The notes beneath the pieces are model-generated. The model did not search any database. It saw only the letters and a list, made by a program, of their open reading frames with translations, and was not told the DNA's origin. Made by a program: the position numbers and the translations under genes. From a virus: DNA of 28,688 nt. Numbering within the stretch: position 1 is the stretch's first letter; the number at the start of each line of letters is the position of its first letter. Shown here piece after piece: positions 361-28,688 of the stretch. The DNA lies in the IMG/VR virus record IMGVR_UViG_3300030451_004595, positions 1,049 to 29,736 of that record. One strand, 5' to 3'.

Positions 361-564
361 CTATGACGTTATCTTTGAAGCAAGTTCATTTAACAACGAT
401 TTAAGAGTCTCAATCTCCTTTTTCATCTCATCCATTTCTGCCTGTTTATCAGAATTTCTTCTTTTATCAGACAAATAATTAGAATAACCAGCAGTGTCCA
501 TATTAATTATGGCACCCGTTTTTTCATCACGAAATAAATTTTTATGCCCTTCTACTGGTATCAT
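361..564 (-). CDS. Small coiled-coil protein (67 aa) coupled to the DUF4815 gene
   Basis: The N-terminal half (MIPVEGHKNLFRDEKTGAII, then NMDTAGYSNYL) resembles a small conserved protein found beside the late tail genes in marine T4-like phages, with its E/G-x-x-N-L-x-RD-x-x-(T/S)-GAI pattern. The C-terminal half, about residues 38-63, is rich in E, K, M and L with hydrophobic residues at heptad spacing (MDEMKKEIETLKSLLNEL). It should form a coiled coil. Its ATG overlaps the TGA of the 2477-aa gene as ATGA (561-564), which points to translational coupling and perhaps matched production. It could be an assembly factor or a small structural peptide. No function is established from sequence. Confidence 0.75.
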   Translation of the reverse strand: MIPVEGHKNLFRDEKTGAIINMDTAGYSNYLSDKRRNSDKQAEMDEMKKEIETLKSLLNELASKITS

Positions 565-9629: not shown

Positions 9630-12600
9630 TCAAAGTCCGAACACTCTGATAGCACCAGTCGATCTTAGACCTCTAAGAGATGCTTGTGCATAGTTCTTTC
9701 TTTGAATTGTTGGGAAGGTGGTTAAACCAGAATTTACAGTTAATCCAGTAACTCCTATCGAAATTGGATTATCAGATCTCGTTGCATTATATAATCTACC
9801 CCAACTTAATCGACCCAATGATATTGTATTACCTGTATTGGTAACGCTATGTTTTCCAGTTAAACCAACACCAATTCCAGTTGTGGTTCCATTCAATATG
9901 TTACATGTTATTTCACCATTTTCACTACCAGTTGCCACTCTATCATGAACGATGTAGATATTATCAAGGAAATTAGTTCCAATTCCAACTATAGAATCAT
10001 TATGAGTATCAACAGAAGTAATTCCTGTTCCTACAGTTGTATCAGTAATCATAATTGGATATCCCACCTCTAAGTCATTTGTATTCTCTCCAGCTCTTTC
10101 TGCCCTGAAGAAGAATTTAATTCCAAGTTGACCACTGTTAGTGACTTCTTTAATACCAGTTATAATACCAGTAAATCCTTGAATGTTATCAATAGAGGTT
10201 ATTTTCTCAGTCTGGAATGATGGCTCTTCGATCAACACTTGAGGTGGATTTGATCTTGTATAACCAGCACCAACTCCAGTTAAATTAATATTATCAACAG
10301 TGCCATTTGATAGAGTTGCAGTCGCAAATGCGGTTGCAGCAGTTCCTACAGTTAAACCAGCTCCTACAGGAGGAGTTATACTTACTCTTGGAGTTATTAA
10401 GTACCCTCTTCCATTTTCAGTTATATCAATATTAGATATAGTGCCTGTTGCAGAAACTACAGCAGTTGCAGCAGCACCAACATTTACATGACCAGATGTT
10501 ATTAAAGCATCTATCTCATTAATATTAATATTATATTTCAGATCAGATAGGTCTTCTACATGAGTATTAGGTTCAATATGAGATCCTTCCTCATAGAAGA
10601 ATGAGTCAACATTATCAACAAAGATATTATCTCCTGAATTAGAACCAGAAGTATCAGTCAAATCACCAATTATCTTTGCGGTTGGATATATTTGAGGTTC
10701 GAGTGATGGTCTAGATTTATCAATAATCTCACCATTGACAACTACATCAACTTTTTGTTTTGTCCATCTTATTGGTTTTTCAATAATTTCATCTACACCT
10801 AAACCAGTGTAAATGTTTGTTTCAATTAAATCTGCACCAAGTAAATCTGTAATTACTCTTTCACTTTCTTGTGCTGTTGAAACACCCACAGGTGATTTCA
10901 TTAATCTTATTTCATCACCACGTTTTACTGATTCTTGAACATCAACTAAATCAACATCTATTCCTTCTTGTCCTTTGTAGAAGAAGATATCAACTTTGTC
11001 ATGATCATTTGCACCAGGAGAGGATTCACCTGAAGGTGCTTCTAAGAATGTGAATGTTGTACCACCTTGGAACTGATATGATTCACCTGGTTTCTGTAAA
11101 ACACCATTAACAAATATCAATAATACAGCATCTAAATTAATTAAAGCTGATTGTGAATTTGATAAATCTTTTTCAAAACTTAGTAATTGACCGTTAAAGA
11201 ACAGTGGGAATCTTGTTTTTACACCATCTTGTAAGTTTCTTATATCATCAATAAAATCAAGTTCACCAAACTGCCATGCTGAGAATTGATCGTTAAATAT
11301 TCCAGTAACTTCTAATTCAAATTCATTAATAGGTTGTGATAGATGTGCTGCTGTTACAAGTCCAACAGGTTTGAATTTATCACCAACTTTAAATGAATGT
11401 CCTTGTCTTGCTATTTGGAAGTTAGATATTTCAAAAGTAGTTGAACCGATACCTACTGAAGTTTTTGCTGCACTTACTTGAACATCAATTAATAAATTTG
11501 AGCCTGTATCAGTTGTAGATCCAATACCGAATCTTGAAACACCCACAACAGGTAAATTGTCATAATTGGGTTCTGGAATTATAATTTCTGGATTTATATA
11601 ACTTGTACCAGCAGAAACAATATTGAATGAAAGTGTACCACCTACTCCCACTGTTGCAGTTACTTCTGCACCTGTTCCACCGCCACCACCTTGTCCAACA
11701 AATAAAGTGATTGAGTCAGTTGTAGTTGCAATAATAGCAGTTTGAATTCCAGCAATAGGATCTGAATTAGGGAAACTTGTTTTTGATACTGAACGAGGAT
11801 AAGGGTGATTAGAGAAGAAATTATCTTTTGAACACTTAAATAACAATCCACCAGTATCAATACCAACTGTATCGCTTGTGGATAATCCGTGATTTGGAAT
11901 TGTAAGAACAAGAGTTCCTGTATTTGAGGTATAGACTGCATCTGTCGCTGTAAATGCATTTACACCTGTAGCAGCAAAGTTACCTTTACGGATTGAATTG
12001 ATACCAGCACTAACAAACTTATGTTCATATGCTTGGTCTATAACTTCAATATTAACAGAACCACCACGATATCCTGAACCAAATGTAAGATCTTCAAAGA
12101 ATTCATATGCAACTCCACCACCTTGATAATTATGAGGAATTGTGCTAGGACCAGCTTGTACTTCAAATGATCTATCTGAGACAATACCAACTACGAATAA
12201 TGGTCTCTCATGATCTTGGAATATTGTTGTTGTGACACCTACATATCCACCACCACCAATAGTTTTAACTGCTGTTGCTGTTGCAGACTCAAATTGATGA
12301 ACATAATTATCAGCAGGGTCAGATGCACCAACATTTACTTGGAAAGTATTTTGAGTTACATTACTTACTGTTAAATATTGTCCAGCTGCAGGGTCAGTTG
12401 CACGAGGATAGCAATGAACTGTTGCGAAACTATCTTTATCACATCTAAAACATATTGAACCAATATCAAGTATCACAGCATCATTTTCAACTAAACCGTG
12501 ATTTGCTATTGTAATTACTAATCTACCATTTGTGGGATTATATGTTGCAAATGTAGGTTGTCCTACAACTGTCTTAGGACATGCAAATTCTAAACCTTTG

Positions 12601-15600
12601 AGTTTTACTGTATTTGGTCTTTCTAATGCAAAACCATGAACTTCGTTTGTTGTGACTGTAATAATACCAGATGCATTATCATATACAGCAGTTTGAATTC
12701 CAAGATTGAATCCCGATGAAGTTCCAATACCTACTATACTTGTTAATCCACCATTACTATCTTTAAATGCCTTAACTTTCGCACCTACCAATGGAGCATA
12801 TCCAAGACCAGCTGTAGAACCTAATGAAACAATTATACCCCCTCTAGGCACTTGGTTTTGATTAATATCAGAATCAGATACAATAAATTCTCCGTTTGTT
12901 GATGTAATTCCTGTAAATTCAACTGTAGATATTCCTGCAGTTGTGTCACTTATAAATTCATAATTATTACCAACATTGTTTTGAGTAAGTGGTGTTTGGA
13001 ATACTCCATTTATGAATAGTATACCATTACCAACACCAATACCAGAAGCAGTATTAGCACCACCAACAGTTAGATTATATGTTTTACCGATGCCTGTAAA
13101 ACTATCTGATATGTCATCAAACAACATGTTAGTTGTGTAATTACTTCTTAAGAATGTTCTTCCACTATAATCAGCTTTTACAAATGGTAAATTAGTTTCG
13201 TCTCTTCTTGATCTTGTATTACCTTTTGGTGGATCAGTAAAGAAGATTTTACTATCTACAATATTAAATGAACCTCTATGAACTTTGATTGTTGAACCAC
13301 CAACATGTACAGTTTCAGCTGCTCCTAATTCACCTCTCCTGACCTTCACACAAGGTAAAGTTGCAATACCTAATGAAACGTCAACTGCATCATTAATCGT
13401 TCCTGTAGGTGTGCTAGAGAACCCTACCTCAGTAATGGTCATATATTCATCATCAATCTTTAATATATCGGATGTAGTAATTGAACTAATACCACTTAAA
13501 ATTAATTGTGTAAGACCAATTCCAACCGTGTTGTTGTATGTAAATCCATCAAAGACTCCTAGAGTATGAGTAATAGTTGTGAACGTAATAGGTTGCTGAA
13601 CTACACCATCAAGACCTATAATTGTTTTGCTTAACTGTTTGGTCATTGATAGTTTGTGAGCATTTCCAGAACCACTTCCAGTAAAGGTGACTGCTGCACC
13701 TGTGCCGATATATTCAGGTCGAGTGAATAATTCAAATCTATTTTCATCAATCACTTTTGCAAATACATCACTAGGAAGAATTGTTGTAACTATACCAGCT
13801 GAGTTTGTTGTTGCTCCAATTGAAACAGGAGTAGCAGCGATTCCAATGAAAGTTGATTGTGGTGTATATACTAGTTGTTCATTAGTGTTAAAGAAATGAT
13901 TCGGTATGTTAAATACTCCTGTTGATTTGATGAGACCGACTCCATCTGCTAGTGAATTAATTCCAATAGGATTAAATGTCTTAGAGTAAATTGGAGTTCC
14001 ATCATGAGTTAAATCAAATTCCTTTTTATTTGCTCTCAATCCACTTAAACCATCATAAGTCGATAGAAATACTTTTTGATTAACAGGTCCGTAAATAAGA
14101 TCAGGTGGAGTATTTGCAAAATCATTAGCGGTGTAGAATATTTGGTTATATGCTTGAACTTCGATTAAAGAATCAAACTCGGCATCTGGATAGAATTTTA
14201 AATTGATGTCCGTTCCAGAAATTTCACCACCAAATGTACCAATACCAGTTGTAGAACCTGCAGATACAAATGGATACTGTACTGTTACTGTATCATCTTC
14301 ATCTCTTAGTGATATTACTTGATGTATTGCAGATGTTTCACCACAAGAAACTCTTACTAAAGATTTTACAGAACTATCAATAGTTCTATTAATTGATCCA
14401 TAGATAAGTGGGTTTGATGTTCCTGATACATGATTAGATTCTAATCTAACACTTCTCTCTGATCCAGATGGTTGCCCTGTAACAGAGAATCTATATGTTC
14501 CAATTCCATCAGTTACAGTTCCTAATCCAACTATGTTAGCTCTTACGTTGAGTATATCTAATCTATCATTTTCAATTTGTAATTTAATTAAATCATTTTC
14601 AAAACGGGCAGTTATAACACCGACAACTGAATTACTCAAACCTGGTAATGTATCAATATAAGTTTGTGCTACTGTTGTATCAGTGCCATCAAAGTCAACT
14701 ATGACTTCATTATAATTAATTTCTTTAGTTTTACTATCCTCTACAAAAATATTTGCATAAAGACCATTGAAATCAGTTTTGGGGAATTCAACAATCGAAG
14801 TTGTACTTATTCCAGATAATGCTGTGGTTGCACCTACATTTACACTTCTTAAATCAATATTACCAATTGGAGCACCACCACTAGAAGGTAAGTCTGTATT
14901 AAAGTCAATTTTTAAAATTTTGATATCATGATCCTTTTCAAATTTTTCTGTTGGTGTGAATACTAATGTTTTAACATCATCTATAGAAATTTCAGTTGAA
15001 AAATCACCTAACTTCATTGTTGTGAAGTCTGTTGTCTTTTCAAGAAGATAAGCATTATCAGTAGTAGTTAATACCACTAATTCTGATAGTTGTACATCAA
15101 AAGTATCAGGGTCAACAATTTGAATAATGTAATTTGCATAGTCTTCAGTCAATTCTTCAATGATAGTTTTATTCTCTTGGAATCCTGTGCTTGAGAACTT
15201 ATTACTAATATCATCATGTAGTAATACTCTATTAGTTTTGCATCTTGTAAAGTCTGTTAATGTTTTATTAGATAATTCAACAAATTTAGAACTATTAGTT
15301 CTTGTATCAAAATCTCTTGAAAAATCAAAATTGTTAATTGCATCAACTCTTTGCTTATCTTCTAAACCTAATACATTATTAACATCAAGAACGATTAAAT
15401 CTTTTGTAAGTGCAGTTGTACCAACTCCAACAGTAACTTTACTTTCTATTGAAGTATCTGAGAAATTCCTTAATCCTGCTGGATGAACAAGACGATTTAC
15501 GGGATTTACAAATTTATCCCATTCAACTGAGCTCTTAACAGTGTAAGAGAGATTTTGGTAGTAATCATTATTAGGTATGACCTGATAATCTTGATTCAAT

Positions 15601-18600
15601 TTACCAATATCATCTAACCAACCATATTCTTGTCGATTGGAGAAGTTAGTGGTAAATTTAGCTCTATTTTCTAAAATACTTGTTATCTCTGCTGATACAT
15701 TACTAGATTTACCAATTATTCTATCTCCTGCTTTTACTTCAAATTTTCCATCAATTTTTACATAGTCATCTCTAATTTCTGTTATTCTTAAATCAGTTTC
15801 TTGTCCATTTACAACTAATTTTTCACTTAATTCAAATATTCCTCTTGTTAAATTTGGTCTAAGAATTGGATAGTTTTTCTTATTAACTATAGTTGCATAT
15901 CCAGACTGGAAAGTTTTTGCGATACCTGTATTTGTTGTTAAACCAGATAAGTTAAATTCTAATATCGCTTGAGTTCCAGCAATATAATCTGAAACAGTAA
16001 AGAATTGATAATTATAATTTTCTGAATTAAATCCATCACCACTTACACTAGTTTCTGTTGAAATACCGCCTTGAGTTGCACCGACACCAGTTTCACCTAT
16101 TCTTTGTATTCCTTCAACAAATATTTTGTCTCCTATAGCAAATGGTTGTGGATCTACAAATCCATTCATAGGTGTTTCTAAGAAACAAGTAACTACTCCA
16201 GATTTACTTGTAACTATAGAACCAATTCCAACTCCATTAGAGTTATTAATAGCAACAATTTCATGATTTACTGAATCTAGACCTGTAACTGGTGCTAGAA
16301 CCTTAACCTCAGATATAGTTTGATTAGGTGTTATTGCAACTATGGATGAATTATCCATAACCGCACCAGAAGTAGGGTTAAAGACTATTAAATTAGGTGC
16401 ATTGATATAATTTGTTCCACCACTTATGATATCAACAGTTTCAATTATATCAAGATTATCAATATTTAAAACTGGAGGTATAAATGCCTCTGGACTTAAT
16501 GTCTTATCAGAAGAATATTCATAACCAATATCTACTATTCTTACATCTTTGATTCTACCAATTGAAGTAGATATAGCTACAATATTAGCATTTGTACCAT
16601 TTTCGCTTGTAACAGATTTAAACTTAGGTAGTTTTTTGTAATTAAAACCAGAGGATAAAATTTTGAAATCTTTTATTGCACCTACAACATTGCTTGATTT
16701 TGTAGAATATTCAAGTGTTTCACAATCAGAACTAGAGTAAGACAATAATTCTGGAACTTTTGGTGAAAAATCAAATGTTTCTGATGTTACATTAGATATT
16801 TTATACTCACCATTATAAGTACTATCAACAAATCTTATTTCAGCATAATTTTGCACATCTGTATCAGATGTACTAATGAATCCACCTTTAGAAACTCCAT
16901 AATATAATTTTTCTGGTGTAGATTTTGAAAACTCTACTGATAATCTGCCACCGATAGGATCAGTATTATTAGTGCCAATACCGATGGTTCCAATACCTAA
17001 AACATTAAAGTTAACTGAATCTTGTGAGCTATCATATTCATTCAATAAATCTTTATCATAGAATAATTTAAAATCAAAATTAGCAAGAGAAGTATCTTTA
17101 AGTGAGAATGTTAACTTAGAATTTTTAACAACATTAATTCTTGGATTAATTAAAGCTATTGTTTGATTTGAACCACCAGTATTAGCTGTAATGTTAACTG
17201 TGTTAATTGGAGTGCTACTTAAGTCAGATAAAGTTTCAGCAAGTTGGAAATATCTATCACTTATCTTATTGACAAAGTAAGATCCAGTTGATAAACCAGT
17301 TATACCACCATCATAGAATATTTTATCACCTGTTTTTAATCCATGCCCCTCAATATCAAATTGATTTGTTTCTACGTCTGCTGCTGCAAAAGTTATTGGG
17401 TTAATTAATAATTTTTCAAATTCAGAATTGTAGGCAACTGAAATAGGAGATGTTGTACCAATACCAACAGATAAATTTGGAATAACATTAATTTTAACGA
17501 TATCATTTTCTAAAAGATTATGAGTTGTTGTATCTGCTGCTGAAACATTTGTAATTACTGTGGATGTAACTCTATCAACATCACCTGTTACTTGCTCATA
17601 ATCAGTTTGGAAGTAATATGAACCAGAATTTATGCCTGATAAAGAACCCTTGGAATAAAAATAGAGACCATCGCTAGTGCTTCCTATACCAACTCTAGAA
17701 GTTAATATACCAATAAAATCTTCTCCTTTGTCAATTATGAAAACATCAATCGAATCATCTCCAGAGTAAGGAACTTTAAACTCAGATACTTGTGGAGTAT
17801 TACCAACATCAAATCTATTTGCACCAAGTCTCTTATTTAATTTTACCTTCTGTCCTGTTTTAAATGGATGATTTGGTATACGAATTGTTCTAGTTGGTAT
17901 TGAAACATTCTCTTTAATCTCTCCAATCACAGATTCAACTGTAATAGCACTACCAGGTGTAGTTCCAACTCCTACAGACTGAGGTCCATTGAAGTATATA
18001 ATTTCATTTTTCTTTGAATTAAATTTTCTTGTTTTTGCTGGAATACTTATTCTATTATTTAAAACATCAACTCTAGATCCTAAAGTATGTCCTGCTCCTG
18101 CAAATCTCTCAACTCTTATAACTTTAGGTGTATGATAAAGATTTAAAACTCTTAATGTTTCATTATCAATTCTTAAAGTACCACCAACAGATACAGTATT
18201 AGGAATACTTGAAACAAAAATATCTTCTATTTTTCCAGCTACATTTCCACCTAACATTGTTTTTGCTAGACCGATAGTATCTGTTGAAACTCCTACACTA
18301 AAAGATCCTTCAAGATTTACTATTGCAGTGCTGAGCCCTGTTACTGAAACATAATCTTTATCATTAAGTTCCATAAACGGTAAATAACACGCTTCGACTT
18401 CATTTTCACTCTTCCATTCAAAAACTAAATTCTCAAATCTATGTAAAGTTGTATTGATACTAGATACACCTAATCCAACTATTTCATTTACTTCTGCAGA
18501 AAATCCAGCACCATTTGTTCCTTCATCATCAAAAACAATTAAATCTTTAACTTTGTATCCTGAACCTCCATCTAAAATTTGAAGATTATCAACTCCTCCT

Positions 18601-21600
18601 TTAGTTACAGATTCTATTTTTGATAATTGTCTAATTGTTTCATTTGATTCAATAATAAAATCATTATCAGCATATTCTTCATCAACAGCATAAGGTAATG
18701 TATTCCTTAGTAAATTAGAGTTATTAAAATCAAAATCTTGAGTTAAAACTAGATTGTCATTTATTAATGGTGATCTATAAGTGCGTCCTATGAAATATGG
18801 ATATTTTCCTTCAATTTTATTTGATTCAGTTGATAAACCTACTGATGTAAAATAAGCATAAATTCCATTTGGAAACTCTGGTGTTTTTGCAAATCTACCA
18901 TTGTGTATATCTAAATCACCATCACTATCAAATGAGTAATCTTCAATAAAAAATCCCTCTTTAAATCCAGATGGTCTATTTTTAAGGTTAGAAACATCTA
19001 ATTTGTATGATGAAGAAATAATTTTTAAATCTGAGTTAATATTTGTTGGATCTGAATATCCAAAAGGACCGTATATTGGATTTCCATCATAAGCCCATCC
19101 TATAATTGGTGAATGACTTGTAATTTTATCAAATTCACCATTTTGTTTGACATCGAAACTATTTTCTAATGAACCTGCAAGAGTTTGTGAATATCCTAAA
19201 ATACCAAATGATAAAGAATTTTCTCTGGTGGTTAAGTAATTATTTCCAAATCTACCAGCATCATTTAAAGTTAAACTTCTAACTCTTGCACTGAAAGCAG
19301 CGTTCATACCTCTTGGTAGAACATTGGCATCTACAGTCAGACTACTATATCCTATACCTGATTGTACTACAACTGCATCTTGTATCTTACCATCCTGTAT
19401 GATTGGTCTTACAACTGCACCTGAACCACCTGAAGTATCAGTGATAACTACTTCTGGTGCTGAAAAATATTCACTACCCTTGTTTACAACAGCAACACTA
19501 TCTACTTTTCCATTTACGATGATTGGTTTTAATTCACCATTTCTACCATTCTTTACTTTTATCTCTGGTACTACTTGATGATTAAGTATTGATGAACCAT
19601 AATTAGTTCCCTCTTCGCAAAGATAAACATCAGTGATTCCACCAAGGACTATAGGTGTAATATTAAATGTTCCTGTTACTGTTGATCCATATGATACTTC
19701 AATATTTACTTTAATATCAGGATATTTAAATACATGATCATCAGATCCTGTTGATTGTAAGTCAACGAATTTTCCTCTTTCATAGTCAGATGTAGATGTA
19801 CCTGCAATTCCAGCATCAGCAAGTTTAAATGAATTGTCATCAACCTTGCTAATTATGTAAGATGTTGAAGTGGAAAGACCTTGAATAGGTGTAGATGCGG
19901 AATATTCAATTATTTCACCACTAGAAAATCCATGATTTACAAAATTGATAGTATCATATGAAGTTGAGATGCCAGATGATTTTACTTTTAACTTACGATT
20001 TGTATATCCTGAACCAGACTCTATGACTTTTATTGCACTTAAAGTTGTTTTATTTTCAGTTCTAAATCTATGAATTCCACTTGCAGCTGAATCAGTTGAT
20101 AAACCAACTGTATTAATACCAGCCGAACCTGCTAATGCATCACTTTTAGTGTTAAAAATACGAACAGTTGAAGTATTTACAACTCTAACATAGTAAGGAG
20201 CACCATCAGATAAAGTTCCAGTTATAGTATTTGATAAGTCATATGCGGAACCAATACCGATTGGTGAGTTACCATTGCTACTGTAATATATTAATTGTCC
20301 ATTCTCTAAATTATGTTGTTTTTTGAATGTGATAGTTTCATCTACAATATCAATACCACCATTAAAAAATACATTTCTACTATCAAAATCTAAAAATCTA
20401 TTTCTTATTCCTATAACTGGTTGAAGAACACAACCAGAACCATTACCTCCAGTTAAAGAAACACTTGTAACTGATTCAATATCAAAATCTTGTGGGTCAA
20501 CGATTACTTCTGATACACTTCCACTTAAAACTGGTTCAACTACAGCAGTTGTTCCTGGTGCAGCAGGAGTAGAATTTTCTACTATGACTTGTGGAGGATT
20601 TACAACATCATAATTTTTACCAGAATTTATTACATCTACGGATTCTAGAGGTCCAAAATAAATTTTATTATCTGATATTGGTGATCTTATTTGAACACCA
20701 TCTATTAATATACCTATGTCATTTAAAGGTTGTTCTTGTTTTGATGTAACAAATAAATTTTGAGAAAGGGGTATTCTTCTTAAAATCTTATCAGTTTCTA
20801 ATTTTCTATTTGCATGTCTTTGTAAAATAAAATTATGACCTCCAGCAGTTCCTAATCCAATTTGAACTGTGCTTGCAGTACCAATTTGGTTTGCTGATTC
20901 GTATAATGCTATCTTTGATATACTCTGGTTTGCAGGTGGAATTATTGGATCTACGTAATAAGTTCTTCCAGATTCTAATCCTGATAAAACTTCACTATCG
21001 GGTGAGTATATAACAGTATCACCTTGTATAAATTTGATGTTTGTATTAGCTGGAGGTGTAAATTGAATATAACTGTATAAACCAGATACAAAATCTCTTC
21101 CATCCAAATTAGATCCAACAGCAGTTTCTTCAATAATGTCAGTATCAATAATATAATTTGGAAGTGAATTAGATGCGACATAACCGTCAGCATCTCCATC
21201 TGTATATACATTTAATACATCAGATATAAGGACATCATTTCCTTGTTTTATTTCTACTCCAGTGCTAGATGCAGTCTCATATTTTCTTCTAATATCATAA
21301 GCTTCATTAGGATCTTGAGTAAAACCAGCAATATTACTTGCGGTAATTTGATTTAAATTTGTGTCTATGCTAGAAACTTGACCACTACCTACTATAACCT
21401 GCTCACCTCTTTTCAAGATATCAAAATTATCACCTACTTTCAAGTTAGATTTATCAATTATAGTATTAAAACTAAATGTGGAACCATTTATACCAACTTC
21501 AAATCTAGAACTGGTATTATACTTCCATGAATTTGCAAATATTTGTTTATAAGTTTCACCTTTATTTTTTATTTTTTCACCTACATTTTTTACAAATATA

Positions 21601-22865
21601 CTTTCACCCTCTCTAACAAGTCTGACATCATTCACAGGTACAAGTTCAGAGAGAACACCAGTAATTCTTAAATCAATTCTCTTTGTTAAATCTCCATTTT
21701 CATAACCAAAAATAGTTTCATCAGATCTAATATCATCAGCAGTTTCAATTCTTAGACCTATACCAGTACATCCAAAAAATTGATTAAGTGTTTTAGATGT
21801 ATAATCAATTCTATTTTGACCACTAATTATTGTACCAGTTGTTCCAAACCCAACAGTCGAGTCTACAGATATGACTGATGCACTTGGCGGTGCTACAGAT
21901 AAAGCTTTTGTTTTACCTGGTATTGTAAAAACACCTTCAATTAGATCACGGTCACTAAAACCAACAAACAAAGATATTTTATAGTAATTTTTACCACCTC
22001 TGTTTAATATTTCAACTTCAGATACCGATGCGTTTGTAGATGTATCGGTTGACTTAAATATTGTTTGTCCAACTAAGTGTTGTGGTTGACCTGTAGGAGT
22101 GATTAAGTCAGCTACAATAACTTCTCTACGAATAAACTCCGCACCTGAAGGTTTAATAAGATTACCTTCTAAATCCAATACAGTTGATTCAACACCATAT
22201 AGTATTTTAAATAATATTCTTATTGATTCCTCAATACCTTTTGACTGATAAAAAGAACGTGCAAATTTAACAAAATTTCCTACATCAAGATCAGATGAAA
22301 AATCATTATCTTCTAATCCTGGTAAAAAAGTTTTCTTTAATTTTTTATAAAATTCTTGTAAAAATAAAACTGATAAATTAATAATTTTATCACCAGAAGC
22401 ATGAGAGGATGCTGTTGTATCTTCAAATATAAGACTTTCACGATTTATCTCTAATAATGAAGAACTTATTCCAACATTGTGACCAGAGATTCCACTAAAA
22501 CCACGAATACATCCTGTAAATGATGTTGGAGTTATTCCTGTATATGTTATAATCTCATCGTTAATTTTTAAAAGTCCATACTCAGATGGAAAACCTTTTG
22601 TACTTGGTACTGATATAGTTGTATCTTCTGAATTTATTGTAGATGATAAAGTTGTTTCTCCAACAACAACTTCAGGCACTAAATTATCTGGTTTAATATA
22701 TTGATCAAAATTACTGATTAAATCAACAGGACCACCTTGGAATTCCTGAGAGATGTAATATTGTTTAAAAAATTCTATTGCATTAGGAAAATCTGCCAGA
22801 ATAAACTCAGGCAAATGGCTTTCAATAACGGTATTGACTTTTATTCGTTTGTCAATTTGAGACAT
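9630..22865 (-). CDS. 7: Giant baseplate wedge protein at the gp7 position (4411 aa)
   Basis: This 13.2-kb reading frame lies between gp6 and gp8, where T4 has gene 7 (about 1030 aa). Residues about 194-226 contain FARSFYQSKGIEESIRILFK followed by ILYGVE. Residue about 263 begins LVGQTIF, and residues about 2433-2467 contain DYYQNLSYTVKSSVEWDKF then LVHPAG. These parallel T4 gp7 landmarks as I remember them: STKGIEASYKFLFKVLY, DLVGQTIY and RSYYVMKI...W...RFVHPVG. The gaps between them are greatly expanded with beta-rich modules. These are GGxGY repeats, HGL/TGD repeats (about 840-1020 and 1840-1890), a YHYH-type domain (about 1249-1362), FVNGV(L/F)Q repeats, and a duplicated Cys/His module (about 3440-3700). 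G-I-G-(T/S) turns recur throughout. No enzyme motif is seen. The start at 22865 follows the gp6 stop by 3 bases, with an AGAGGA Shine-Dalgarno inside the gp6 end. The wedge role is inferred from synteny and these landmarks. Confidence 0.85.
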   Translation of the reverse strand: MSQIDKRIKVNTVIESHLPEFILADFPNAIEFFKQYYISQEFQGGPVDLISNFDQYIKPDNLVPEVVVGETTLSSTINSEDTTISVPSTKGFPSEYGLLKINDEIITYTGITPTSFTGCIRGFSGISGHNVGISSSLLEINRESLIFEDTTASSHASGDKIINLSVLFLQEFYKKLKKTFLPGLEDNDFSSDLDVGNFVKFARSFYQSKGIEESIRILFKILYGVESTVLDLEGNLIKPSGAEFIRREVIVADLITPTGQPQHLVGQTIFKSTDTSTNASVSEVEILNRGGKNYYKISLFVGFSDRDLIEGVFTIPGKTKALSVAPPSASVISVDSTVGFGTTGTIISGQNRIDYTSKTLNQFFGCTGIGLRIETADDIRSDETIFGYENGDLTKRIDLRITGVLSELVPVNDVRLVREGESIFVKNVGEKIKNKGETYKQIFANSWKYNTSSRFEVGINGSTFSFNTIIDKSNLKVGDNFDILKRGEQVIVGSGQVSSIDTNLNQITASNIAGFTQDPNEAYDIRRKYETASSTGVEIKQGNDVLISDVLNVYTDGDADGYVASNSLPNYIIDTDIIEETAVGSNLDGRDFVSGLYSYIQFTPPANTNIKFIQGDTVIYSPDSEVLSGLESGRTYYVDPIIPPANQSISKIALYESANQIGTASTVQIGLGTAGGHNFILQRHANRKLETDKILRRIPLSQNLFVTSKQEQPLNDIGILIDGVQIRSPISDNKIYFGPLESVDVINSGKNYDVVNPPQVIVENSTPAAPGTTAVVEPVLSGSVSEVIVDPQDFDIESVTSVSLTGGNGSGCVLQPVIGIRNRFLDFDSRNVFFNGGIDIVDETITFKKQHNLENGQLIYYSSNGNSPIGIGSAYDLSNTITGTLSDGAPYYVRVVNTSTVRIFNTKSDALAGSAGINTVGLSTDSAASGIHRFRTENKTTLSAIKVIESGSGYTNRKLKVKSSGISTSYDTINFVNHGFSSGEIIEYSASTPIQGLSTSTSYIISKVDDNSFKLADAGIAGTSTSDYERGKFVDLQSTGSDDHVFKYPDIKVNIEVSYGSTVTGTFNITPIVLGGITDVYLCEEGTNYGSSILNHQVVPEIKVKNGRNGELKPIIVNGKVDSVAVVNKGSEYFSAPEVVITDTSGGSGAVVRPIIQDGKIQDAVVVQSGIGYSSLTVDANVLPRGMNAAFSARVRSLTLNDAGRFGNNYLTTRENSLSFGILGYSQTLAGSLENSFDVKQNGEFDKITSHSPIIGWAYDGNPIYGPFGYSDPTNINSDLKIISSSYKLDVSNLKNRPSGFKEGFFIEDYSFDSDGDLDIHNGRFAKTPEFPNGIYAYFTSVGLSTESNKIEGKYPYFIGRTYRSPLINDNLVLTQDFDFNNSNLLRNTLPYAVDEEYADNDFIIESNETIRQLSKIESVTKGGVDNLQILDGGSGYKVKDLIVFDDEGTNGAGFSAEVNEIVGLGVSSINTTLHRFENLVFEWKSENEVEACYLPFMELNDKDYVSVTGLSTAIVNLEGSFSVGVSTDTIGLAKTMLGGNVAGKIEDIFVSSIPNTVSVGGTLRIDNETLRVLNLYHTPKVIRVERFAGAGHTLGSRVDVLNNRISIPAKTRKFNSKKNEIIYFNGPQSVGVGTTPGSAITVESVIGEIKENVSIPTRTIRIPNHPFKTGQKVKLNKRLGANRFDVGNTPQVSEFKVPYSGDDSIDVFIIDKGEDFIGILTSRVGIGSTSDGLYFYSKGSLSGINSGSYYFQTDYEQVTGDVDRVTSTVITNVSAADTTTHNLLENDIVKINVIPNLSVGIGTTSPISVAYNSEFEKLLINPITFAAADVETNQFDIEGHGLKTGDKIFYDGGITGLSTGSYFVNKISDRYFQLAETLSDLSSTPINTVNITANTGGSNQTIALINPRINVVKNSKLTFSLKDTSLANFDFKLFYDKDLLNEYDSSQDSVNFNVLGIGTIGIGTNNTDPIGGRLSVEFSKSTPEKLYYGVSKGGFISTSDTDVQNYAEIRFVDSTYNGEYKISNVTSETFDFSPKVPELLSYSSSDCETLEYSTKSSNVVGAIKDFKILSSGFNYKKLPKFKSVTSENGTNANIVAISTSIGRIKDVRIVDIGYEYSSDKTLSPEAFIPPVLNIDNLDIIETVDIISGGTNYINAPNLIVFNPTSGAVMDNSSIVAITPNQTISEVKVLAPVTGLDSVNHEIVAINNSNGVGIGSIVTSKSGVVTCFLETPMNGFVDPQPFAIGDKIFVEGIQRIGETGVGATQGGISTETSVSGDGFNSENYNYQFFTVSDYIAGTQAILEFNLSGLTTNTGIAKTFQSGYATIVNKKNYPILRPNLTRGIFELSEKLVVNGQETDLRITEIRDDYVKIDGKFEVKAGDRIIGKSSNVSAEITSILENRAKFTTNFSNRQEYGWLDDIGKLNQDYQVIPNNDYYQNLSYTVKSSVEWDKFVNPVNRLVHPAGLRNFSDTSIESKVTVGVGTTALTKDLIVLDVNNVLGLEDKQRVDAINNFDFSRDFDTRTNSSKFVELSNKTLTDFTRCKTNRVLLHDDISNKFSSTGFQENKTIIEELTEDYANYIIQIVDPDTFDVQLSELVVLTTTDNAYLLEKTTDFTTMKLGDFSTEISIDDVKTLVFTPTEKFEKDHDIKILKIDFNTDLPSSGGAPIGNIDLRSVNVGATTALSGISTTSIVEFPKTDFNGLYANIFVEDSKTKEINYNEVIVDFDGTDTTVAQTYIDTLPGLSNSVVGVITARFENDLIKLQIENDRLDILNVRANIVGLGTVTDGIGTYRFSVTGQPSGSERSVRLESNHVSGTSNPLIYGSINRTIDSSVKSLVRVSCGETSAIHQVISLRDEDDTVTVQYPFVSAGSTTGIGTFGGEISGTDINLKFYPDAEFDSLIEVQAYNQIFYTANDFANTPPDLIYGPVNQKVFLSTYDGLSGLRANKKEFDLTHDGTPIYSKTFNPIGINSLADGVGLIKSTGVFNIPNHFFNTNEQLVYTPQSTFIGIAATPVSIGATTNSAGIVTTILPSDVFAKVIDENRFELFTRPEYIGTGAAVTFTGSGSGNAHKLSMTKQLSKTIIGLDGVVQQPITFTTITHTLGVFDGFTYNNTVGIGLTQLILSGISSITTSDILKIDDEYMTITEVGFSSTPTGTINDAVDVSLGIATLPCVKVRRGELGAAETVHVGGSTIKVHRGSFNIVDSKIFFTDPPKGNTRSRRDETNLPFVKADYSGRTFLRSNYTTNMLFDDISDSFTGIGKTYNLTVGGANTASGIGVGNGILFINGVFQTPLTQNNVGNNYEFISDTTAGISTVEFTGITSTNGEFIVSDSDINQNQVPRGGIIVSLGSTAGLGYAPLVGAKVKAFKDSNGGLTSIVGIGTSSGFNLGIQTAVYDNASGIITVTTNEVHGFALERPNTVKLKGLEFACPKTVVGQPTFATYNPTNGRLVITIANHGLVENDAVILDIGSICFRCDKDSFATVHCYPRATDPAAGQYLTVSNVTQNTFQVNVGASDPADNYVHQFESATATAVKTIGGGGYVGVTTTIFQDHERPLFVVGIVSDRSFEVQAGPSTIPHNYQGGGVAYEFFEDLTFGSGYRGGSVNIEVIDQAYEHKFVSAGINSIRKGNFAATGVNAFTATDAVYTSNTGTLVLTIPNHGLSTSDTVGIDTGGLLFKCSKDNFFSNHPYPRSVSKTSFPNSDPIAGIQTAIIATTTDSITLFVGQGGGGGTGAEVTATVGVGGTLSFNIVSAGTSYINPEIIIPEPNYDNLPVVGVSRFGIGSTTDTGSNLLIDVQVSAAKTSVGIGSTTFEISNFQIARQGHSFKVGDKFKPVGLVTAAHLSQPINEFELEVTGIFNDQFSAWQFGELDFIDDIRNLQDGVKTRFPLFFNGQLLSFEKDLSNSQSALINLDAVLLIFVNGVLQKPGESYQFQGGTTFTFLEAPSGESSPGANDHDKVDIFFYKGQEGIDVDLVDVQESVKRGDEIRLMKSPVGVSTAQESERVITDLLGADLIETNIYTGLGVDEIIEKPIRWTKQKVDVVVNGEIIDKSRPSLEPQIYPTAKIIGDLTDTSGSNSGDNIFVDNVDSFFYEEGSHIEPNTHVEDLSDLKYNININEIDALITSGHVNVGAAATAVVSATGTISNIDITENGRGYLITPRVSITPPVGAGLTVGTAATAFATATLSNGTVDNINLTGVGAGYTRSNPPQVLIEEPSFQTEKITSIDNIQGFTGIITGIKEVTNSGQLGIKFFFRAERAGENTNDLEVGYPIMITDTTVGTGITSVDTHNDSIVGIGTNFLDNIYIVHDRVATGSENGEITCNILNGTTTGIGVGLTGKHSVTNTGNTISLGRLSWGRLYNATRSDNPISIGVTGLTVNSGLTTFPTIQRKNYAQASLRGLRSTGAIRVFGL
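10250..10500 (-). repeat. GGxGY-type beta-modules near the C-terminus of the giant gp7-like protein
   Basis: Two successive half-units are visible: SNIDITENGRGYLITPRVSI followed by TPPVGAG...A-F-A-T-A-T-L-S-NG, then DNINLTGVGAGYTRSNPPQV followed by LIEE. Each has a G-x-GY turn, then P-x-V-x-I, then an alanine-rich strand ending in NG-x-(V/I)-x-x-(I/V). Other copies lie near 20480-20650, 19560-19650, 19280-19480, 18480-18620 and 16280-16690. Confidence 0.6.
11030..11220 (-). repeat. FVNGVLQ-type module, copy B, in the giant gp7-like protein
   Basis: The encoded segment has TRFPLFFNGQLLSFEKDLSN, then VLLIFVNGVLQKPGESYQF and TFTFLEAPSG. The pattern F-(V/I)-NGV-(L/F)-Q-x-P...Y-x-F...F...AP is a recurrent beta-module of fibre and baseplate proteins in marine myoviruses. 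A second copy lies at 12908-13083. Confidence 0.6.
11757..11939 (-). repeat. Duplicated Cys/His module, copy 2, in the giant gp7-like protein
   Basis: The segment has a strand (NTGTLVLTI), then PNHGLSTSDTVGIDTGGL, then LFKCSKDNFFSNHPYPR, ending NSDP. It aligns with copy 1 at 12391-12549 over the pattern NHGL-x-x-x-D-x-V-x-(L/I)-D-x-G...F-(R/K)-C-x-KD-x-F-x-x-x-H-x-YPR...DP. The conserved C, D and H could form a metal site or a surface loop. That is inference. Confidence 0.65.
12391..12549 (-). repeat. Duplicated Cys/His module, copy 1, in the giant gp7-like protein
   Basis: The segment has TNGRLVITIANHGLVENDAV, then ILDIGSI, then CFRCDKDSFATVHCYPR and ATDP. It is the N-terminal partner of copy 2, about 200 residues away. 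This copy has three cysteines near the conserved KD and H, whereas copy 2 has only the central one. Confidence 0.65.
12908..13083 (-). repeat. FVNGVLQ-type module, copy A, in the giant gp7-like protein
   Basis: The encoded segment reads YNLTVGGANTASGIGVGNGI, then LFINGVFQTPLTQNNVGNNY, then EFISDTTAGISTVEF. It shares F-(V/I)-NGV-(F/L)-Q-x-P and the following Y-x-F strand with copy B at 11030-11220. Confidence 0.6.
15465..15570 (-). other. Internal gp7 landmark (SYxVKS...W...VHPAG)
   Basis: Residues about 2433-2467 read DYYQNLSYTVKSSVEWDKF, then VNPVNRLVHPAGLRNF. T4 gp7 has, from memory, a corresponding RSRSYYVMKIKS...W...VIRFVHPVGF segment in its C-terminal third. The segment supports the gp7 assignment. 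Its position, more than 2000 residues after the KGIE...LFK landmark, shows how much has been added between them. Confidence 0.6.
17200..17345 (-). repeat. HGL/TGD beta-module in the giant gp7-like protein
   Basis: The segment reads GHGLKTGDKIFYDGGITGLS, then TGSYFVNKISDRYFQLAETL. The pattern HGL-x-(T/S)-G-(D/E)-x-(I/V)-x-Y...GL-(S/T)-x-x-x-x-Y-x-(V/I)...F-x-LA recurs at 19800-19950 and, more loosely, at 20130-20330. It resembles repeats in large bacterial surface adhesins. Confidence 0.6.
18780..19120 (-). other. YHYH-type domain inside the giant gp7-like protein
   Basis: Residues about 1249-1362 begin SHSPIIGWAYDGNPIYGPFG. They continue with a DSDGDLDIHNGRF segment and TPEFPNGIYAYF, and end near YPYFIGRTY. 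The order GWAYDG-x-PIYGP...DLD-x-x-NGRF-x-x-TPE-(Y/F)-P-x-G-x-Y matches the YHYH domain family. The signature Y-H-Y-H itself is Y-A-Y-F here, so its histidines are lost. Confidence 0.75.
19800..19950 (-). repeat. HGL/TGD beta-module, further copy
   Basis: The segment reads NHGFSSGEIIEYSASTPIQG, then LSTSTSYIISKVDDNSFKLA. It aligns with the 17200-17345 unit over HG-(F/L)-x-(S/T)-G-(E/D)...Y...GLST...Y-x-(I/V)...(S/Y)-F-x-LA. Confidence 0.6.
22190..22285 (-). other. N-terminal gp7 landmark (KGIEES...LFKILY)
   Basis: Residues about 194-226 contain FARSFYQSKGIEESIRILFK, then ILYGVE. T4 gp7 has, from memory, an F-x-x-x-x-Y-D-F-Y-S-TKGIEASYKFLFKVLY segment followed by LVGQTIY. Here LVGQTIF follows at about residue 263. 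This is the strongest sequence argument that the giant protein is a gp7 homologue. Confidence 0.65.
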
Positions 22866-26605: not shown

Positions 26606-26633
26606 ATTATAGCATAAATGCTAAATTGATCAA
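26606..26633 (-). promoter_or_regulatory. Sigma70-like promoter with internal dyad, before the 48-aa basic gene
   Basis: On the minus strand TTGATC (26633-26628) is separated by 16 bases from a perfect TATAAT (26611-26606). It lies about 21 bases upstream of the ATG at 26585. Between the boxes lies a perfect dyad TAGCAT-TT-ATGCTA (26623-26610), and the -10 box is part of a 12-bp palindrome TATAATATTATA (26611-26600). The -35 overlaps the stop codon of the upstream gene. It could be an early or middle host-sigma promoter with an operator. The AT-rich setting raises the chance of a fortuitous match. Confidence 0.5.
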
Positions 26634-27196
26634 TATTCTGTATCAAAAAAGAACAGTTGACTTAATCGACCTGTTTCTTGATTATTTCCAAAATAAGTTT
26701 GTGCAGTATGCCATTGATTTGCACGAAAAAGAATCAATCTATTGTATATATTATGGACTTCGGAAACAAGTTCCCACTTTGTCATATCATTACTAAAATC
26801 CCATATATCTTGTGAATCTCCTTGGTTCCAAGTTAAACTGCCATCAATCTTCGAGCGATAAAAACCAGTCCCACTTTCGAGTGGAGCATTTGGAGTCAAA
26901 AATAAAACACCTGCCCAGTTATTATAATTGTCAACATGCACCCAACTTCGTACGATTGCTGTTGCCATGTGAAATGCTCCTGTATATTCACCAACACCAT
27001 CATACCAAGCTGTTACTTTTCCTGCATATGGACGAAGTATTTTTTCAATAGTATGTTTTGTACTCTCGTTTATATGATTAAGTGTACGTACGCCAGGATA
27101 GTTTCCTTTCACACTGAAATTCTGTGAGAGAGCAAACTTACGAACCTCATCTACATTATCATAGAAGTCATCAACAACAATTAAATTTACGTTCAT
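26630..27196 (-). CDS. DUF6445-like protein, probable 2OG-Fe(II) oxygenase fold (188 aa)
   Basis: The product has a double-stranded beta-helix pattern. H87-V-D89 in SWVHVDN is the likely metal H-x-D, followed by WAGVLFLTPNAPLESGTGFY (about 94-113). Then comes RLILFRANQWHTAQTYFG with H163 as the distal histidine, and GRLSQLFFF with R177 as a possible 2-oxoglutarate anchor. The segments W-A-GV-L-(F/Y)-L-TPNAP-L-x-x-GTGFYR and the FFFDTE ending are characteristic of DUF6445, common in marine phages. The catalytic reading is inferred from these residues, and the substrate is unknown. Its ATG overlaps the TGA of the preceding oxygenase gene (ATGA, 27193-27196), so the two are translationally coupled. 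A promoter for the next gene begins at its stop. Confidence 0.8.
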   Translation of the reverse strand: MNVNLIVVDDFYDNVDEVRKFALSQNFSVKGNYPGVRTLNHINESTKHTIEKILRPYAGKVTAWYDGVGEYTGAFHMATAIVRSWVHVDNYNNWAGVLFLTPNAPLESGTGFYRSKIDGSLTWNQGDSQDIWDFSNDMTKWELVSEVHNIYNRLILFRANQWHTAQTYFGNNQETGRLSQLFFFDTEY

Positions 27197-27786
27197 GCCT
27201 TAAACTCTTTTCGATTATTTAATTCTTCAACCTTATCCATGTAACCTTCATCGCTGAGTGACATATAAGTTGCAACTAAAACAACACGACGACCATATGT
27301 CGGATACTGTTGTGCATGAGCTCCTTCAAAGGTAATACAATCATCTTCTTTTGGTAAGTATAACTCTTCTTCAACAAACGTTCCAGCATCGGTGTCTGAA
27401 AAATATATGAGTAAGTTATGATGTTTATAAGGGTGGTCACAATGAAACGTTCCATTACGACGAGTTTTTTCGGGTTGTGGATGTGTTGAGTTCAATGCCA
27501 TTCTGAGAAAGAAATAATCCTCATAACCATTGAAGTTTAATATTTCACTTACAATATCTACAAATTCTTTTGCTCTGAGTGTTCCAGATGTCGTCCAGTG
27601 GTCAATCTCAGGGCGATCCATAATTGCATGAGTATAAGCCCAGTTCGGACGTAGATGAGTATCTATGCCATTATGTACAACATCAGTATTAATATACCAA
27701 GGAATTTCTGGACTTAGAACAAATCGTTTCAGTTCGAGGTACTTTTCGGTCTTAGGATTTCTCAGAATCTTCATGTGCAGGCTCAT
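27193..27786 (-). CDS. 2-oxoglutarate/Fe(II)-dependent oxygenase family protein (197 aa)
   Basis: The protein shows the HxD...H...R signature of 2OG-Fe(II) dioxygenases. H115-C-D117 lies in TFHCDHPYKHHNLLIYFS, followed by SDTDAGTFVEE, with distal H157 in FEGAHAQQYP and R166/R167 in GRRVVLVATY. The H-x-D to H spacing (40 residues) and the H-to-R spacing (about 10) fit the family. Phage members are thought to hydroxylate proteins, nucleobases or small metabolites, but the substrate here cannot be read from sequence. The ATG at 27786 overlaps the 65-aa gene by 35 bases. A second in-frame ATG at 27774 (MKILRNPKTEKY) would still overlap by 23. The gene is coupled to the next oxygenase-like gene by ATGA, so the two enzymes probably act in one process. 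Confidence 0.85.
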   Translation of the reverse strand: MSLHMKILRNPKTEKYLELKRFVLSPEIPWYINTDVVHNGIDTHLRPNWAYTHAIMDRPEIDHWTTSGTLRAKEFVDIVSEILNFNGYEDYFFLRMALNSTHPQPEKTRRNGTFHCDHPYKHHNLLIYFSDTDAGTFVEEELYLPKEDDCITFEGAHAQQYPTYGRRVVLVATYMSLSDEGYMDKVEELNNRKEFKA

Positions 27787-27949
27787 AACTAATATCTTTT
27801 GCGGTCAATTCCTTATTGTAATAAGTTTCAACAGCAAGGTCTTCCATAATATCAAAGAGTTCTCTTTCAGTGACATTCCAGAAGATAACTTTTCCTTTTC
27901 GGAGAATATTATATCTGTCTATTTTTTCTTCTTTTTGCGGTTGTCCCAT
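27752..27949 (-). CDS. Small soluble phage protein (65 aa) overlapping a membrane micro-protein
   Basis: From the chosen start the product reads MGQPQKEEKIDRYNILRKGK, then VIFWNVTERELFDIMEDLAV, then ETYYNKELTAKDISYEPAHE and DSEKS. The core, a strand VIFWNVTE followed by an acidic helix ELFDIMEDLAVETYY, resembles small conserved proteins of marine T4-like phages with an (F/W)-x-NVT-x-x-E-x-FDI-x-(D/E)-DLA pattern. The frame is open up to an ATG at 28042. I reject that start because the extra N-terminus only mirrors the 30-aa membrane peptide and the end of the DUF7936-like gene in another frame. No good Shine-Dalgarno precedes 27949, so coupling or frameshifting from the 30-aa gene may supply ribosomes. 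Function unknown. Confidence 0.7.
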   Translation of the reverse strand: MGQPQKEEKIDRYNILRKGKVIFWNVTERELFDIMEDLAVETYYNKELTAKDISYEPAHEDSEKS

Positions 27950-28011
27950 TGATAGAATATGTAAAGTCCGAGTAGTGTCCAAAAGACGGTTGTAAATCCA
28001 ACGTGGTTCAT
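27919..28011 (-). CDS. 30-aa single-span membrane micro-protein
   Basis: The frame reads MNHVGFTTVFWTLLGLYIFY, then QWDNRKKKKK, and stops at TAG. Residues about 4-21 form one hydrophobic helix, followed by a basic tail (R plus five K). This is the layout of a small inner-membrane peptide with its C-terminus in the cytoplasm by the positive-inside rule. A GGAGGA Shine-Dalgarno lies 11 bases upstream, and its ATG overlaps the stop of the DUF7936-like gene as TAATG. The 65-aa gene starts inside it in the -1 frame. No family is recognised. It could be a membrane anchor, a holin-accessory or superinfection-type peptide, but nothing shows which. Confidence 0.75.
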   Translation of the reverse strand: MNHVGFTTVFWTLLGLYIFYQWDNRKKKKK

Positions 28012-28307
28012 TACCAAGGAGTTCCTCCAATATTCGGGTCAATGTATCGATTTAAATCTTCTTGAAGTGATTCAATCGCACTGGAACCGATGCCTGTCTG
28101 TATCCAACCGATAAGCTGTGATTCGGTCAGGTCGGTGTAAGGAACGAGTGTATCAGGGCGTGAGAACGTACATATACCTGCAAGACTATGACTCATAACT
28201 GAAGTACCTGTGGTAGATACTCCAGTATAAGTGTAGACCGCAGTATGAACGAAACCGTCTGATTCCCGTTCTAAATTTTCGACTTTAAATGTGTAACTTG
28301 TGTTCAT
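28011..28307 (-). CDS. DUF7936-like phage protein (98 aa)
   Basis: The product begins MNTSYTFKVENLERESDGFV, with two to three beta-strands (HTAVYTYTGVSTTGTSVMSH). It then has the YTDLTESQLIGWIQTGIGSS segment at about residues 57-76 and ends in a short helix and GTPW. The pattern (P/Y)-(Y/F)-x-D-LTE-x-Q-(L/V)-(I/V)-GW-(I/V) with a proline-tryptophan ending is typical of the DUF7936 family in marine T4-like phages, where the role is unknown. No signal or membrane segment is seen. It lies four bases after the 25-aa membrane micro-gene and overlaps the start of the 30-aa membrane micro-gene (TAATG), so both of its neighbours are micro-proteins. Confidence 0.8.
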   Translation of the reverse strand: MNTSYTFKVENLERESDGFVHTAVYTYTGVSTTGTSVMSHSLAGICTFSRPDTLVPYTDLTESQLIGWIQTGIGSSAIESLQEDLNRYIDPNIGGTPW

Positions 28308-28311
28308 ATCT

Positions 28312-28389
28312 CTATGTATGGGGATTATAATACTGTAGCATTAATATGAGAATGAATATAATCACGAGTATGGTAATTACTGCCATCAT
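28312..28389 (-). CDS. 25-aa single-span membrane micro-protein
   Basis: The frame reads MMAVITILVIIFILILMLQY, then YNPHT, and stops at TAG. Residues 3-18 are almost all I, L, V, M or F, giving one membrane helix with a short polar tail. The ATG overlaps the TAA of the glycosyltransferase gene as TAATG. A GAGGA Shine-Dalgarno lies 7 bases upstream, inside the glycosyltransferase end. It exactly fills the space before the DUF7936-like gene. No family is recognised, and the extreme hydrophobicity leaves little room for similarity searches. Confidence 0.65.
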   Translation of the reverse strand: MMAVITILVIIFILILMLQYYNPHT

Positions 28390-28688
28390 TAGATAATCCT
28401 CGTCTTTTCATGACCGACACGAACACGAGGGTCGCACCATATATCAAAACCAGCTTCCTTTGCATCTAAGCAAAATGAAACGTCCTCACCACACATATCC
28501 TGTACTTCACCTGATTCAAAGACTTGCATCTTTGGAGCAAACCAAGGATATGGCATTCCTTCATGCTCAAATACACCATTCTTAATTAACAACCAACCAA
28601 AGCCAGTATAGTCTACTGTAAATGGTTTCTTTCTTTTACTAATACTATCTATGGTTTCGTGATTCATCACACCTCCGTTTGTGCGGAA
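28389..28688 (-). CDS. Glycosyltransferase (GT-A type), C-terminal part only
   Basis: The frame is open to the window edge, and at least 99 codons of the 3' part are present. The segment VDYTGFGWLLIKNGVFE is followed by MPYPWFAPKMQVF. The downstream CGEDVSFCLDAKEAGFDIWC then leads to DPRVRVGHEKTRII. These match the C-terminal acceptor-side motifs of family-2-like phage glycosyltransferases, where GED-x-x-F is the usual catalytic/acceptor loop and W-x-D-x-x-x-x-x-GH-x-K the late metal or diphosphate region. The nucleotide-sugar-binding N-terminal half is outside the window. GTG and ATG codons at 28670 and 28667 follow a GGAGG, but I prefer an internal reading because a 92-residue glycosyltransferase would lack its donor site. 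The likely target (virion protein or host surface) is not shown. Confidence 0.8.
   Translation of the reverse strand, partial: FRTNGGVMNHETIDSISKRKKPFTVDYTGFGWLLIKNGVFEHEGMPYPWFAPKMQVFESGEVQDMCGEDVSFCLDAKEAGFDIWCDPRVRVGHEKTRII

Follow-up and report, generated by a model that had tools for sequence, protein, structure and literature searches.

A hidden 30-codon gene of a putative T4-like cyanophage encodes a divergent representative of a predicted single-span membrane micro-protein family

The closest described relatives of the gene analyzed here are cyanophage peptides of 26–40 aa with a single membrane span and the core MNNIGLEVVFWTVLSVYLLAKLGVFKK, which PHROGs groups as phrog_36745, a family of 27 positions listed there with unknown function; PSSP7_053 of phage P-SSP7 lies at the matching position. 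Since the family is already in PHROGs, albeit without a function, the gene is not of a new kind. In the parts of the open-licence literature searched, no family peptide is described, and a 2022 survey of small phage genes by Fremin et al. may list the family. What is new, within the searches made, is a diverged subfamily, its link to phrog_36745, a paired micro-gene, the size of the family, and the variety of its contexts. PetN, PsbT, and KdpF, which are accessory subunits of small size in photosynthetic and respiratory complexes, resemble the micro-protein in length and in having a single helix, a likeness of working only; no such family occurs among its matches at E ≤ 10. Searches of PDB, Pfam, and NCBIfam gave no convincing relative (best single-member match DUF1294, E 0.015) and, at E ≤ 10, no small photosystem or cytochrome subunit, so homology to such subunits was rejected. 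Matches to Sec61 (E 0.6–0.8) span 11 positions and were treated as chance.

The window, the whole stretch of 28,688 nucleotides of viral DNA analyzed here, comes from a 29.7-kb genome fragment that we read as a T4-like cyanophage because the top match of its gp25, at 64% identity, is in Prochlorococcus phage P-SSM5. The genes of interest follow one another on the minus strand, in the order phrog_1574 gene, 25-aa gene, DUF7936 gene, 30-aa micro-gene, and 65-aa gene (Table 1). The micro-gene runs from an ATG at 28011 through 30 codons to a TAG at 27921–27919, and its translation, MNHVGFTTVFWTLLGLYIFYQWDNRKKKKK, is identical to the peptide quoted in the original prediction. As that prediction had stated, a TAATG at 28011 overlaps its start with the stop of a DUF7936-like gene, and the domain assignment is also right (PF25590 at 54.6 bits against a cut-off of 27). 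Another TAATG, at 28389, likewise joins the stop of the phrog_1574 gene, which has 254 aa in relatives L001 and L003, to the start of the 25-aa gene. The GGAGGA proposed as a ribosome-binding signal is present, but it is poor evidence: it lies a rather distant 11 nt upstream of the ATG, encodes DUF7936 residues, and is absent from L001. It also counts for little because Shine–Dalgarno-like motifs occur in just 53 of 159 family neighborhoods.

Table 1. Features of the micro-gene locus (window coordinates).
Feature	Position	Strand	Remark
phrog_1574 gene, C-terminal part, head of block	28389..28670	(-)	cut by window end
25-aa second micro-membrane gene (predicted), MMAVITILVIIFILILMLQYYNPHT	28315..28389	(-)	linked to 30-aa gene
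DUF7936 (PF25590) gene	28011..28307	(-)	between both micro-genes in window clade only
GGAGGA, possible ribosome-binding site	28023..28028	(-)	doubles as DUF7936 codons
30-aa single-span micro-protein gene (predicted)	27919..28011	(-)	diverged phrog_36745 family member
65-aa gene (phrog_3252)	27752..27949	(-)	likely ATG inside 30-aa micro-gene
96-aa frame from TTG 28042	27752..28042	(-)	artefact upstream of 27949

Elsewhere on the minus strand of the window, the neighboring proteins encoded at 27193–27786 and 26630–27196 share phrog_274 (DNA endonuclease V), the latter also containing DUF6445 and having a best PHROG that reads minor coat protein. These PHROG names look unreliable, and both products may be oxygenases. 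Single ORFs of 4411 and 2477 aa at 9630–22865 and 561–7994 (minus strand) are presumably structural genes.

The 96-aa frame that a gene finder was expected to prefer, hiding the micro-gene, does exist. Relatives that keep this frame and break the 30-aa frame were not seen; the pattern is the opposite, with the 96-aa start confined to the window, L002, and L234 among 45 entries (the window plus 44 loci, L263 being left aside) and no broken 30-aa copy among the best 80 of 122 confirmed loci with a relative of the 65-aa gene. Upstream of 27949, the 96-aa frame is an artefact. Given the rarity of its start, comparison of the loci makes the ATG at 27949 the most likely beginning of the 65-aa gene, which would then overlap the micro-gene by 31 nt. 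Many locus variants offer an alternative in-frame start 33 nt earlier, likewise within the micro-gene. Calling the 96-aa frame would extend the 65-aa gene by a spurious N-terminal stretch and erase the peptide, and the locus illustrates how overlapping frames conceal micro-genes.

In those best 80 of 122 loci, the 30-aa gene is intact in 45, and in two more a contig end cuts it inside an intact tail. The relatives L001–L003 retain the peptide with few substitutions. The ratio pN/pS is 0.23 for the four window-type sequences, 0.39 and 0.23 in two other main locus clades, and 0.43 across the whole wider locus clade, where the two alternative frames come to 0.71 and 1.26; over these groupings, one alternative frame gives 0.53–0.84 and the frame of the 96-aa ORF 1.26 or more. 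Together with the homology described below, this purifying selection bears out the proposal of a hidden coding frame for a single-span basic peptide, and we regard the micro-gene, with its predicted peptide, as confirmed by sequence comparison.

The window peptide matches phrog_36745 at E 0.0012 against PHROGs, and the profile match in the window's own genome record has E 1.4e-4. A profile built on 92 canonical peptides, from which window-type sequences were excluded, still gave the window peptide 26.3 bits and L001, L003, and L232 24.3–24.6 bits. The best layout-preserving shuffle reached 17.9 bits (45,815 scored). The best unrelated ORF reached 13.4 bits (n = 9,535; itself fished by the search pattern) and the next 8.3, and the three ORFs scoring above are genuine family members. 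The variant L236, at 18.1 bits, stands barely above the best shuffle. The window type and phrog_36745 have in common MN-x-[IVL]-G, VFWT, L14, Y17, a single span, a basic end, a length of mostly 26–30 aa, and an overlap with the preceding gene. They differ at positions 6–7, with F6-T7 in the window and L6-E7 in the 93 canonical peptides, which were chosen on GLE; in the tail, QWDNRKKKKK in the window and xxGxFKK in the canonical form; and in the overlap with the next gene, 31 nt against a commonest canonical overlap of 4 nt. Because QWDNRKKKKK replaces the C-terminal G-x-F-K, the window type is a diverged variant and an untypical member. Locus variants from IMG/VR contigs, such as MGNYGFTIILWIAIGLFVFNQWENRKKKRK and MGAHTGFT..., occupy the same place, after the phrog_1574 and 25-aa genes and before phrog_3252, and carry a similar W-[ED]-NRKKK tail, but lack VFWT. 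With the canonical-only profile, 21 of 26 locus types score 2.0–6.8 bits, chance level taken alone, so it is intermediates and synteny that tie them to phrog_36745: they would join through the common locus, the resemblance of their tails, and the intermediate forms, namely the window type and that of P-SSM4 (MNNYGLEIAFWVILGLFILTKLKVFKK). A 235.8-kb record with a locus variant has no canonical copy, as expected if the two forms are equivalent.

The idea of a conserved cassette of micro-membrane genes around a DUF7936-like gene stands for the pair of micro-genes but not for DUF7936 as its center. In the best 80 of 122 loci, a 25-aa gene of the M..ITILVIIFILILMLQYYNPH type accompanies the 30-aa gene in 44 of 45 cases, the exception being L256, where just 82 bases upstream of the downstream gene are available; its motif occurs in none of the 35 loci without the 30-aa gene. 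With pN/pS = 0.27 over 37 distinct sequences, the 25-aa gene is, by this measure, under purifying selection, and by their co-occurrence the two genes are a linked pair of predicted micro-membrane genes. The 25-aa peptide is uncharged and very hydrophobic, with a YYNPHT end. It finds nothing better than E 0.1 in PHROGs, and tblastn of a relative's 25-aa sequence against the phage collection gave no match. DUF7936 was ruled out as a conserved partner, being confined, among the window and these 80 loci, to the window and three relatives. Since L232, the closest locus by the 65-aa gene, lacks DUF7936, the domain is most simply read as a later insertion between the paired micro-genes, with loss possible. 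The phrog_1574 gene is still found in 32 of the 35 loci without the pair, in which phrog_3252 follows phrog_1574 directly or after another micro-ORF. For instance, in L283, L288, L290, L291, and L293–L295, where the pair is absent, a different micro-membrane ORF (e.g., MSGVIYIVILVIIFTYLGLSKNDKV in L290) fills the gap before phrog_3252.

One scan of IMG/VR confirmed 487 of 517 stretches as family relatives in viral contigs, of which the best 80 by similarity were sampled; another search gave 14 stretches, three of them window-type loci already in the set. The sets analyzed comprise 159 distinct neighborhoods and, for the canonical form, 132 different coding sequences and 93 different peptides. 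For codons 2–25 of the 132 sequences, dN/dS is 0.09, a value that is biased, as is the canonical uniformity, because the search patterns fix residues (N2, G5, L/F6, F10, W11, and T12), GLE was further selected on, and the loci are the best 80 of 487. At codons free of search patterns the ratio is 0.13, and at canonical codons 13–25 it is 0.15. The free sites L14, Y17, L19, G23, and F25 show no or almost no variation among the 93 peptides. Canonical members are, on these ratios, under purifying selection.

By tblastn, the window peptide matches 15 phage records at E ≤ 10, all cyanophages, each weak singly (E 2–8); in all six records whose annotation was consulted, it falls on a micro-ORF of this kind, wedged between two annotated genes. 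The S-SSM4 form retrieves 40 records at E ≤ 1, again all cyanophages, and the canonical form is present in both cyanomyoviruses and cyanopodoviruses. By name, these 40 records include 22 Prochlorococcus, 11 Cyanophage, and 6 Synechococcus, compared with 34, 74, and 352, respectively, of the 488 found when that collection was queried for talC, which suggests enrichment in Prochlorococcus phages, with the caveats of redundant records and unmatched searches. Thirteen hand-picked cyanophages searched whole, P-SSM5 included, have no family member; thus, some cyanophage lineages do without one. Each of 13 distinct positive records has one convincing copy, a pair of E 0.06 matches, of which one contains a stop, being scored as chance, and the genome fragment that includes the window has one family match. 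Among 12 member-bearing phage records (P-SSM7, P-RSM4, S-SSM4, P-RSM1, P-SSP3, P-SSP2, P-SSP7, P-HM1, P-TIM40, P-SSM4, P-HM2, and metaG-MbCM1), only P-SSP7 (PSSP7_053) and P-TIM40 (PTIM40_24) give the gene its own annotation feature. One strict-pattern scan of cellular genomes found no cellular homologue. It returned four stretches, two by chance and two true members, L213 (NZ_RMVE01000006.1, Nonlabens xiamenensis, 188 kb) and L214 (PAZU01000043.1, a Euryarchaeota MAG). As their neighbor genes match viral-contig loci at 80–93% and 54–70% identity, respectively, both are probably contaminating cyanophage contigs, and a cellular origin was set aside, although a diverged host homologue may exist beyond that strict pattern.

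Family members sit tightly between their neighbors. The upstream stop falls −10 to +12 nt from the micro-gene ATG in 154 of 159 neighborhoods, and the downstream start −35 to +10 nt from its stop in 130. The neighbors themselves fall into 27 upstream and 35 downstream clusters, and those with names are genes of replication and of nucleotide and carbon metabolism, not consistently photosynthetic, including the sliding clamp, transaldolase, and purC. In isolates, the micro-gene adjoins talC (P-SSP7, the cyanopodovirus copies standing beside this gene), CP12 (P-TIM40), a phycoerythrobilin gene (P-HM1), or a methyltransferase (S-SSM4).

AlphaFold, run on the single sequence, predicts one helix over residues 3–28 (mean pLDDT 83), and the most hydrophobic 17-residue stretch begins at residue 4. 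Under the positive-inside rule, the positively charged end of a membrane protein stays cytoplasmic; as the tail bears the net positive charge of the peptide, the topology is probably N-out/C-in, with the basic tail in the cytoplasm. A conserved helix face was not significant (p 0.35–0.69), so a docking surface on the helix is putative.

Because the neighbors are many and varied, and because representatives of 20 of the 62 clusters, when scanned, included none in the lysis category, the simplest reading is an independent, host-directed membrane peptide. Tentatively, and at somewhat less than an even chance, we propose that the predicted helix docks on a host membrane protein or complex during infection and alters its activity. 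The helix (about residues 4–22) would insert in the host membrane with its N-terminus outside or lumenal and its basic tail facing the cytoplasm. It would dock there on a protein or complex that is conserved in the membranes of marine picocyanobacteria, and change the activity of that target while infection proceeds. A first guess for the target, and a guess it is, would be the membranes of energy conversion, the micro-gene then acting like an auxiliary metabolic gene. The neighborhoods, not consistently photosynthetic, the want of a convincing database relative, and the lineages that do without the gene speak against this reading. Placed amid replication and metabolic genes, the micro-gene would be independent of particular neighbors and could therefore ride in many operons. 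In the portion examined of the P-HM2 expression paper (PMC5082946), auxiliary metabolic genes are expressed in the middle cluster only, and the micro-gene is not reported.

Other functions were weighed against this host-directed docking. A small, basic, single-span peptide present in one copy per positive record, patchily distributed, and found in myoviruses and podoviruses that infect the same host genera could instead act in superinfection exclusion or early immunity, as a predicted inner-membrane peptide that blocks the DNA entry of competing phages. We think this unlikely: exclusion genes tend towards diversification, whereas the retrieved sequences are very uniform (in a search that favors similar ones), and no homology was seen to any named exclusion protein. 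About as unlikely, in our view, is a membrane adaptor that recruits phage proteins, at the window locus together with the linked 25-aa micro-protein. The 44/45 linkage would suit such an adaptor, as would the predicted cytoplasmic tail and the K/R-rich ends of the longer members (up to 40 aa), but canonical members occur in the phage collection regardless of the 25-aa gene, which has no match there.

One hydrophobic helix ending in a basic C-terminal tail also recalls a minimal holin or pinholin-like lysis peptide, and the word holin is absent from the main text of the cyanophage genome papers searched, so that, as far as those main texts go, these phages may have a holin that has escaped recognition. 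Lysis is nonetheless an improbable role, with the scanned neighbor representatives free of lysis genes, the named ones belonging to replication and metabolism, and the 13 hand-picked cyanophages doing without the gene. Very improbable is the case of no functional protein at all, either a leader for translational coupling or a module for −1 frameshifting by which the 65-aa protein would be anchored in the membrane. The start/stop overlaps on both sides in most neighborhoods would fit it, and in some relatives an A AAA AAG slippery heptamer leads into the 65-aa frame, but the amino acid sequence is kept across differing neighbors. The lysine tail was rejected as a site of programmed −1 frameshifting into the 65-aa gene, since the heptamer occurs in 11 of 47 entries and not in the window. 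Within the lysine tail it is scattered and unconserved (L001, L003, L236, L239, L267, and L268).

Returning to docking on the host membrane, the more specific claim that a membrane micro-protein of 26–30 residues, shared by viruses that infect the most abundant photosynthetic cells and having crossed contexts as well as podo- and myoviruses, retunes one conserved host membrane complex is rather doubtful. If true, it would be one of the smallest host-takeover genes, overlooked since annotation often skips it. Widespread (487 loci, two morphotypes), constrained, and often unannotated, the family is a candidate host-takeover gene in ocean cyanobacteria.
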